A stretch of DNA of 53,206 bases from Alphaproteobacteria bacterium (GTDB lineage: Bacteria; Pseudomonadota; Alphaproteobacteria; Bin95): positions 1 to 53,206 of the forward strand of contig JAJDVH010000115.1 in the NCBI GenBank assembly GCA_022826185.1, written 5' to 3'. Made by a program: the position numbers and the translations under genes. Positions 22,428-50,498 of this stretch are shown piece by piece (position 1 is the stretch's first letter; every line of letters starts with the position of its first letter). Under the pieces are notes generated by a model. It saw only the letters and a program-made list of their open reading frames with translations. It made no database searches and was not told where the DNA came from.

Positions 22428-22500
22428 CGCGCCGTTCGATCCGGTTGCCTCCCTGGACAGCCGGCGGCCGGGGCGCGGTCGCCGGGACACGCCGGAAGTG

Positions 22501-22626
22501 TCATGTTGTGTCATGTTCCTCATGCTCAGGGCGCATATTCGATTGCCCGTTCCGGCATGGCGCCCTCCTTTCGGGCGGAGGTTCCGGGTATTCCACCCGG
22601 TTCCGGCGCCGGTCCGTCTTCGGCAT
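22501..22626 (-). CDS. Possible 41-residue basic peptide in element A
   Basis: An ATG at 22626 (minus strand) follows GAGAGGAGGAACCT, a very good ribosome-binding site, and opens a 41-residue frame starting MPKTDRRRNRVEYPEP. A second start, MPERAIEYAP (22558-22526, ten residues) also has a good site, GAAAGGAGGGCGCC. The matching place in the second copy has a different 20-residue frame behind AGAAAGGAG, so the peptide sequence is not conserved though the start signals are. Either the frames are incidental or translation itself matters. Confidence 0.25.
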   Translation of the reverse strand: MPKTDRRRNRVEYPEPPPERRAPCRNGQSNMRPEHEEHDTT

Positions 22627-22674: not shown

Positions 22675-22872
22675 GGGTCCCTTTTCCGCGCGCAATCGCG
22701 CGGGGGCGCGGGCGGGTGTCGGCGCCGGCGCGGTTCGCGCACCTGATTGCGCGCGCGAGACCGCGGACGCACCTCGCCCGTCCGTTCCCGCCGGGGTCTT
22801 TTTCGCGGCTCCGGCCATCGCTTTCTGCAGAAACGCCGAAAGGCGGCCCCGGAAGCCGCCTCTCTCTACTTT
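22675..22872 (-). ncRNA. Candidate structured RNA of element A
   Basis: If transcription starts a few bases after the TATGAT box, the transcript would open with GUAGAGAGAG and fold into successive hairpins: GGCGGC-loop-GCCGCC, then UUUCUGCAGAAA (self-complementary), then GCCGGAGCC/GACCCCGGC around a GCGAAAAA loop (imperfect here, complete in the second copy), then CGCGC-rich stems. Conservation with the other copy is higher here than in the flanks. The RNA end is not clear; no U-tract was seen. It could be an sRNA or a long leader for the short frames after it. Confidence 0.4.
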
Positions 22873-22873
22873 C

Positions 22874-22900
22874 ATCATACACCATATGGGGGAATGTCAA
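22874..22900 (-). promoter_or_regulatory. Promoter-like boxes of element A
   Basis: On the minus strand TTGACA (22900-22895) and TATGAT (22879-22874) are 15 bases apart. The second repeat copy has TTGACA and TAGAAT with the same 15-base spacing. The spacing is shorter than the usual 17, so either the boxes are used at reduced strength or only one is real. The upstream bases are AT-rich. Confidence 0.4.
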
Positions 22901-22987
22901 GCCTGAGAAGAGAATTATTTCAGATAATCACGATCAAATAGAGGATATTGTCAATTCTCGCGCCCCGGCCGCCGGGCGGGTCGGCCT

Positions 22988-49132: not shown

Positions 49133-49305
49133 TGCCGACCGTTGCGCAAGTTCGTCCCCGATGTCCAGCGATACCGGCGGTCCCGACCCGGGCCTCATTG
49201 CGAGGACTGCGGGTCGGGATGAAGGGAAAACCTGCGGTTGTCCTGCCGGTTCAACGAGTTGCAAGAAAATTACCGGGAATTTTCTTTTTTTGTTCCCAAC
49301 CGGGC

Positions 49306-49332
49306 TTGACATTTGGCGGTATGGTGTAGAAT
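49306..49332 (+). promoter_or_regulatory. Promoter-like boxes of element B
   Basis: TTGACA at 49306-49311 and TAGAAT at 49327-49332, 15 bases apart, at the same relative place as in element A. Upstream lies an AT-rich stretch (GGAATTTTCTTTTTTTGTTC at about 49276). The boxes are conserved although the bases between them differ between the copies, which favours function. Confidence 0.45.
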
Positions 49333-49333
49333 G

Positions 49334-49530
49334 AAAGTAGAGAGAGGCGGCTTCCGGGGCCGCCTTTCGGCGTTTCTGCAGAAAGCGACCGGCTGGGGGC
49401 CGCGAAAAAGCCCCCGGCGGGAACGGACGGGCGAGGTGCGTCCACGGTCTCGCGCGCGCAATCAGGTGCGCGAACCGCGCCGGCGCCGACACCCGCCCGC
49501 GCCCGCACGCGATACGCGCGAAACAGGGAC
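49334..49530 (+). ncRNA. Candidate structured RNA of element B
   Basis: The predicted transcript has the same hairpins as in element A: GGCGGC/GCCGCC (about 49347-49365), UUUCUGCAGAAA, and then GCUGGGGGC/GCCCCCGGC with nine pairs (one G-U) around a CGCGAAAAA loop. The third stem differs from element A at several positions; here every pair is formed, while element A keeps seven of nine. No known RNA family was recognised. Confidence 0.4.
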
Positions 49531-49698
49531 ACCCTGTCCCGCCCTTTGCCTGGAAGGAGATGGCACCGATGACTGTGAACAACCCCGTCCCGAACTGGCG
49601 GCGATGCCGGCCGCAAGGCTGCCGCCCGCCGCCGAAGCCCTCACCTTGGCCCTGCCGGATTCACGCCTCTTCGTCCGGCGGCATTCCATTGCCTTCAT

Positions 49699-49853
49699 CC
49701 GTCGCCCCGGACTTGATCCGGGGCCCAACTTTGGTTCTGGCAGCAGCCCCGGATCGGGGTCCGGGGCAGGCCCCGGCGGTCGATCCCGTTCTTCACCGGC
49801 TGCGGCGGTGGCGCGGGTCAGGGATGGCCCCCGGATCGGGGTCCGGGGTGACG
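49699..49853. repeat. REP-like palindromes (CCCCGGACTTGATCCGGGG type)
   Basis: CCCCGGACTTGATCCGGGG starts at about 49705; the inverted partners are CCCCGGATCGGGGTCCGGGG at 49747-49766 and a similar one at 49829-49848 followed by TGACG. They resemble the TGCCCGGACTTGTTCCGGGC palindromes in this window and seem to be a diverged subfamily. Confidence 0.7.
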
Positions 49854-49900
49854 CAAGAGGCGGGCGAATCTCCGATCGCGAGAGGACGGTTACGACAAAA

Positions 49901-49917
49901 CATGACAATTCATGACA
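49901..49917 (+). promoter_or_regulatory. CATGACA heptamer pair 1
   Basis: CATGACAATTCATGACA: two heptamers with ten-base period, followed by TCC. Related pairs occur at 50083, 50300 and, on the minus strand, at 22515-22499. Ten bases is one helical turn, as in sites for head-to-tail protein dimers; a role is not known. Confidence 0.45.
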
Positions 49918-49956
49918 TCCTCGCAGGGGGCCCCGTCGCCGCCCCGGCCCTCCTCT

Positions 49957-50042
49957 CGTCATGCCCGGACTTGTTCCGGGCATCTCCATCGGGGCCATTG
50001 CGGTGGCGGAAATGGATGCCCGGAACAAGTCCGGGCATGACG
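49957..50042. repeat. Inverted repeat pair with the same arms as the phnJ-phnK repeat
   Basis: 28-base arms at 49957-49984 (CGTCATGCCCGGACTTGTTC onward) and 50015-50042 are exact reverse complements, with a 30-base loop of different sequence from that at 32328-32357. The arms are identical to those between phnJ and phnK, so only the stems are conserved. Confidence 0.85.
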
Positions 50043-50082
50043 GAAAGGAGACGGGCGGCAAGCCATGACCGGAACACCGCCC

Positions 50083-50099
50083 CATGACAATTCATGACA
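50083..50099 (+). promoter_or_regulatory. CATGACA heptamer pair 2
   Basis: CATGACAATTCATGACA followed by TCCCCGCAAGGG; pair 1 has the very similar TCCTCGCAGGGG after it, so the two are a local duplication of about 180 bases separated by the palindrome pair 49957-50042. Confidence 0.45.
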
Positions 50100-50219
50100 T
50101 CCCCGCAAGGGTTCCCCCTAACCGCCGCTCCCTCGATACGCGCGGCAAAGGGAACCCGCCGCCGGGAGGAGCCGGCGGCGGCAACGAAACGGAACGCGGC
50201 GAAGAAAGGAGCTGCCCCC

Positions 50220-50282
50220 ATGAACGTCCCCCGCCCCGCCGGTTCGCTGCGGCGGCATGCCGGAACCGGATACAGCATATGA
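50220..50282 (+). CDS. Possible 20-residue peptide in element B
   Basis: ATG at 50220 follows AGAAAGGAGCTGCCCCC and reads MNVPRPAGSLRRHAGTGYSI. It occupies the place of the 41-residue frame in element A, behind a similar ribosome-binding site, but the peptides are unrelated. Listed only because start signals are conserved in both copies. Confidence 0.2.
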   Translation: MNVPRPAGSLRRHAGTGYSI

Positions 50283-50299
50283 ACCCACTGCATGCGAAA

Positions 50300-50316
50300 C
50301 ATGACAGAACATGACA
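50300..50316 (+). promoter_or_regulatory. CATGACA heptamer pair 3
   Basis: CATGACAGAACATGACA followed by TCCC and a third imperfect copy, GTGACA. It ends element B and aligns without gaps to the pair ending element A, including the preceding ATGCCGGAAC about 44 bases before. Confidence 0.45.
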
Positions 50317-50498
50317 TCCCGTGACACATCGCATGAGGAGCCCGGCGGATGCGGACGCCGTCACCGGCAACGACCCGCGACCGCCGGCATCAGCCCGCCG
50401 GCAGCCCTCTACCTCCCGAAGCGGGCAACAGCTATGAAAACCGTCTGCCCCCGGCATGACTTCGGGGGACGGCATTTCGCGAACCGGGCGGGCAGGCC

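Follow-up and report, generated by a model that had tools for sequence, protein, structure and literature searches.

Array-bearing loci in the window

Two loci with tandem CATGACA heptamers lie in the window, the whole 53,206-nucleotide stretch of alphaproteobacterial DNA analysed here, one on the forward (locus A) and one on the reverse strand (locus B). Both comprise a conserved core or leader, an open reading frame (ORF) led by a Shine-Dalgarno (SD) sequence and one or more arrays (Table 1), with each window array found downstream of a core copy on the same strand. The four CATGACA-N3-CATGACA pairs listed in an earlier note are exact (that of array 3 spans 50300-50316), against a shuffle expectation of 0.00, and the lone heptamer occurs twelve times in the window versus 3.4 expected. 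The third unit of array 3 (CGTGACA; 50320-50326) is in register with the first two. The ORF of locus A is a rearranged copy of a ~200 amino acid family with the family start MT[A/V][T/N][D/N]P, and its stop codon (50085-50087) falls within array 2. The only strong Rfam e-values, for miRNA families at the REP-like hairpin of 49956-50043, are spurious, and a permissive Rfam search near the element returned mainly miRNA matches to this hairpin.

Table 1. Features of the two array-bearing loci of the window
Feature	Locus	Position	Strand	Basis or remark
Block missing from relative G004	A	49169..50392	+	Flanks adjacent there, 4-bp gap
Conserved core/leader	A	49300..49545	+	At least 40 genome copies, 89-97% identity
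Promoter-like TTGACA -15 bp- TAGAAT, start of core	A	49306..49332	+	Sequence; conserved in >30 aligned copies
SD-led ORF, 172 aa, start MTVNNPVPNWRR	A	49569..50087	+	SD AAGGAG at 49554-49559
Array 1, CATGACA-ATT-CATGACA	A	49901..49917	+	Exact match
REP/BIME-like near-perfect inverted repeat between arrays 1 and 2, not part of array	A	49956..50043	+	Sequence
Array 2, CATGACA-ATT-CATGACA	A	50083..50099	+	Exact match
Array 3, CATGACA-GAA-CATGACA-TCC-CGTGACA	A	50300..50326	+	Third unit degenerate
Conserved core/leader	B	22677..22903	-	Copy precedes the array
SD-led ORF, 41 aa, MPKTDRRRNRVEYPEP...HEEHDTT	B	22501..22626	-	Stop codon 22501-22503 in array
Array, CATGACA-CAA-CATGACA	B	22499..22515	-	Exact match

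Abundance and period of the arrays

Using pattern searches and sampled sequence stretches, on which all genome-wide figures are based, 259 pairs were counted in the 4.48-Mb assembly, inclusive of the four in the window (136 on the forward and 123 on the reverse strand), and the reversed-pattern control gave none in the same genome. The pairs form chains of two to five units exactly 10 bp apart, with ~150 arrays per genome and more than one hundred dispersed copies of the array-bearing element. The strict ten-base period claimed for the window extends to the genome, with the next exact heptamer at +10 in 77 cases and at +8, +9, +11, +12 or +13 in none. Six congener species hold 177, 192, 228, 210, 53 and 104 pairs, respectively. 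An eighth member of the genus (G001) contains one pair, which looks incidental, and no core, and the pair was absent from the 87 other genomes among the 95 searched. No prior description of the heptamer, or of such repeats in sponge Rhodospirillaceae, was found in a literature search.

Placement relative to the core and neighbouring genes

The arrays are not placed at random. Among all sampled loci with at least 1.5 kb of upstream sequence, in a sample heavily weighted to array-bearing contigs, 189/219 arrays follow a core on the same strand, at a distance of 27 to 1331 bp (median 183), and two have a core on the opposite strand. An unbiased 545-kb genome sample contains 18 arrays, 17 of them intergenic; 14 have over 400 bp of contig upstream, and a same-strand core precedes 13 of these. 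That an array always follows a structured core, which the earlier note put forward for testing, is true of most arrays but not all, and "structured" is without covariation support. The 5' end of the core carries TTGACA, a 15-bp spacer and TAGAAT or TATGAT, and conservation is strong for ~250 bp, yet the core was not retained as a structured RNA family: it did not match Rfam at the gathering threshold and none of ten predicted pairs changed on both sides among fifty sequences. Beyond the genus, a core model searched under strict filters had no match in a sample of 288 genomes of the class. The cassettes formed by core, ORF and array lie 3' of co-oriented genes in 59/80 cases, and a disproportionate number are found between convergent genes (26/80 vs 94/695), which suggests that cassette transcription is contained.

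In their intergenic location the arrays resemble the REP/BIME elements, known as targets of mobile elements (PMC1525189); both number hundreds of copies in intergenic DNA, with a preference for sites downstream of genes, and both serve as targets for mobile elements, in the present case a group II intron. However, REPs are imperfect palindromes, whereas CATGACA units are repeated directly and form no palindrome. The palindrome at 49956-50043 is separate from CATGACA-N3, and real REP-like palindromes adjoin arrays within the same elements.

The cassette ORF and its termination in the array

The SD-led ORF is situated between core and array; several species have complete copies, of ~190-210 amino acids (MTATDPRPALAAMLAARLAP...). 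The family has a dN/dS of ~0.5 over the first 72 codons, and many copies are shortened or broken by REP-like and other insertions. Searches yielded no significant match in Pfam and NCBIfam, no relatives in phages, plasmids and IMG/VR, and a weak similarity to PHROG 31793 (best 5e-5), the function of which is unknown. A low-confidence AlphaFold model (pLDDT 63; pTM 0.27) predicts a helix hairpin and two strand-strand-helix units. One match to the family, in G004 (C230, near 72028), coincides with an open frame of 24115 amino acids that is probably an artefact of masked sequence.

Since the period of ten places TGA in all three frames, the ORFs usually stop inside the array (44/64 cassettes, in every frame, with the endings HDKT*, HDIS*, HDIA* and GPA*). 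The M-T-x-H-D start put forward as the other reading of the pairs is automatic for any CATGACANNNCATGAC and carries no independent information; what endures of it is that the cassette ORF so often ends in the array. A function in RNA or translation can be envisaged, in which the array would be a frame-independent stop and restart: its overlapping ATGA would end upstream ORFs and permit re-initiation (MTxHDxx-stop mini-ORFs), after which Rho would terminate the untranslated RNA. This is consistent with the supply of both TGA and ATG in three frames, with the SD-led ORFs that stop in the array and with heptamer variants at positions 2 and 7, which retain the start codon and Thr. Nevertheless, we consider such a stop and restart rather unlikely, for reasons that emerge from the bases under constraint and from a second lineage.

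Constraint on heptamers and spacers

Twenty single-mismatch units are paired with an exact heptamer, sixteen differing at position 7 and four at position 2, and C1, T3, G4, A5 and C6 are invariant. Judged from these units, a start/stop function alone is insufficient to explain the heptamer, as it would confine constraint to ATGA and leave C1 and C6 free. The spacers are 80% A/T in a genome of 32% A/T, a bias with no codon meaning, and comprise 26 different triplets among 542, usually ordered with AAA first, followed by TTC, TTT or TCC.

The observation that spacers vary (ATT, ATT, GAA and CAA in the window) and heptamers do not was reproduced among orthologous loci, where heptamers are kept, spacers differ and whole 10-bp units are gained or lost; the array of locus B, for instance, has three units in G003, an exact 10-bp difference, and two in G007. 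Most loci of the relatives were chosen for containing exact heptamers. The 22.5-kb locus alone was chosen by flanking similarity, and its four orthologues show one heptamer change versus 5-20% divergence in the surroundings. The heptamers of a core-less array behind an enoyl-CoA hydratase gene are intact in both G000 and G002 (91.6% identity). The copies share descent, and conservation between them is thus partly homology. Taken together with the change of unit number in 10-bp steps, this shared descent could also point to a functionless residue, namely a recently amplified 10-bp tandem repeat that was copied along with the cassette. We hold this to be quite unlikely, given that spacers vary while heptamers do not, that the core-less array retains its heptamers, and that the second lineage has the array alone in common.

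Helical phase

Outside one array, consecutive exact heptamers are separated by gaps of 11, 20-21, 30-34, 40-44, 54 and 65-66 bp, and none by 12-19, 22-29, 35-39, 45-53 or 55-64 bp. After removal of gaps with internal degenerate units and collapse of similar sequences to eight conservative classes, the remaining gaps (21, 32-33, 43, 54 and 65 bp) were phased at 10.9 bp (R=0.99; p=0.001), as opposed to R 0.33 at the codon period, and the control heptamers tested gave no signal. The phasing was lost (p=0.96) when all degenerate CRTGACV units were counted, a set that also takes in REP ends and ORF start codons. Helical phasing of the exact heptamers is therefore suggestive, not decisive. The earlier idea of a protein binding half-sites on one face of the DNA is strengthened by the heptamer constraint, the A/T-rich spacers and the ~11-bp multiples, which have no codon meaning for an RNA element, and is weakened by the loss of phasing with degenerate units and by an orientation that would fit RNA as well.

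Directly repeated heptamers separated by 3-4 bp, with a 10-11 bp period, are also a property of the operators of SARP regulators (PimR/pimM), in which monomers need at least two heptamers to bind cooperatively (PMC5930380). Both systems combine conserved heptamers with short, less conserved spacers, and the classical SARP unit of 11 bp has a 10-bp counterpart with a 3-bp spacer (PMC5930380). However, a SARP operator is a single site upstream of, or at the -35 of, one promoter, whereas the ~150 arrays lie downstream of a promoter and leader, in intergenic cassettes, and have a different heptamer.

Turnover of the cassettes and a group II intron

Since the block at 49169-50392 is missing from G004 and the 22.5-kb element is common to G003 and G007, copies of the element turn over. 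Such presence/absence polymorphism, found at one locus, is a property of transposons and MITEs, and the arrays could be arm-type or transposon-end sites at which a recombinase or transposase moves the cassette, with degenerate copies keeping only the ends needed for mobility. The large number of dispersed copies, many with a decayed ORF but an intact core and array, and the position of the array as usually the last conserved part would accord with this. On the other hand, inspection by eye showed neither an inverted terminal counterpart at the left end nor a target-site duplication at the one empty site (the boundaries being approximate), several arrays occur per element, some arrays have no core, and no recombinase is linked. 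Terminal sites of this kind are thus, in our assessment, unlikely. No second clean empty site was found at further loci, because there the genes are arranged differently or the contigs end at the element. Directly behind one core/array element of G004 (L145:1250-1480), a C-terminal helix-turn-helix fragment resembling a serine recombinase was seen by eye.

A group II intron lineage with the 5' end GAGCGCCAGGCTAACTGGTG starts inside an array in 13 of 18 clear copies from the array-bearing genomes of the genus (L038, L049, L133, L208, L215, L219, L220, L223, L228, L229, L230, L233 and L234), with the insertion point CATGACAnYYC|GAGCGCC. Around twenty group II intron copies are present in G004, many of them at contig ends. 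The arrays can thus be occupied as homing sites, but that they are the homing sites of an intron lineage and were spread together with it is highly improbable: they are just as frequent in G002, G005 and G007, where such introns are few or absent, most are empty, and their distribution is not explained by the intron. It is more likely that the intron exploits the array than that the array was spread by the intron.

A second lineage with arrays

When triple arrays were sought across 84,980 species genomes, the matches were mostly to Alphaproteobacteria and Rhodospirillaceae metagenome-assembled genomes, which we take to be sponge-associated. Five of the genomes (G299-G303) constitute a second lineage, with 44-56 pairs each. 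No core was found in the sampled loci of this lineage, nor did the cassette ORF family match in the five genomes, although the same alignment did match the genus of the window in a separate search. The core is not essential to the array, which is separable from it and forms the part shared by the two lineages.

The arrays of the second lineage lie downstream of a promoter with GAACATTATATGAACA, a LexA-box-like motif present in 14-22 promoter copies per genome (e.g. L291, L292, L296, L299, L311 and L245) and absent from the tested genomes of the genus of the window. About half of these promoters precede CATGACA arrays on the same strand, and among the GAACATTANATGAACA sites listed for G299, G300 and part of G301, 30/52 are followed by an array no more than 435 bp away, in every case on the same strand. 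Array orientation is hence fixed relative to transcription behind two different promoters, as it also would be for an RNA or translation element, but some arrays of the second lineage are only 33-48 bp behind the promoter, without an evident ORF for such an element to terminate. The alphaproteobacterial LexA box is GTTC-N7-GTTC (PMC3323433). The motif of the second lineage, GAAC-N7-GAAC, is its reverse complement and, as in LexA-regulated promoters, overlaps promoter-like sequence, so that SOS control of these promoters appears likely; among the genomes tested, the motif is confined to this lineage. Promoter and array may together form a multicopy SOS-controlled unit. A further motif, AGAC-N-GGTCTGTCTTA-like and reminiscent of a palindromic TetR operator, is found upstream of arrays in L245, L286 and L296, and adjoins TATATA in L245 and L296.

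Period-10 arrays also occur in Dyadobacter, of an unrelated phylum (CATRACA-A[CT]N; up to 8-10 units; L239, L240, L249 and L252). The genome of L239 contains fourteen exact pairs, with spacers that differ from those of the sponge symbionts, and the L239 array is a short distance upstream of an apparent gene start.

A putative array-binding protein

The reading we favour, and to which we give an even chance, is that the arrays are tandem sites at which a single putative protein binds nucleic acid, most likely DNA, cooperatively and with one monomer to each 10-bp turn, and that they form the downstream module of a multicopy transcription unit. This dispersed unit would consist of promoter, leader, small ORF and, at its downstream end, the array, and the ligand of the putative protein would be DNA in helical phase. 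With less certainty, the bound array may be a polar roadblock or a repressor by which transcription started at the cassette promoter is ended or insulated, and the TGA stops in three frames may clear ribosomes at the same place. Such a polar role would explain the fixed orientation of the arrays and the tolerance of convergent neighbours. Plasmid partition systems offer a parallel in their centromere and iteron arrays (reviewed in PMC5016525), which too consist of tandem direct repeats and for which the small protein that binds them cooperatively can also be a repressor. These are plasmid loci of contiguous repeats with one to few copies per replicon, unlike the chromosomal, dispersed arrays tied to a transcription unit described here.

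A more far-reaching version, which we regard as rather doubtful, is that each genome of at least two sponge-symbiont lineages has ~150 polar, protein-bound arrays that end or gate transcription from dispersed promoters, tied to the SOS response in one of the lineages, by means of a dedicated binding protein of an undescribed kind. Should the binding-site reading hold, the arrays would represent abundant and precisely built protein-binding sites without a known partner. They would be linked to multicopy expression cassettes and conserved between species even as their surroundings turn over. The array could then be used as an affinity probe, giving direct access to its protein partner in sponge symbionts that have not been cultured, and would also show clearly how a host repeat is exploited by a group II intron.
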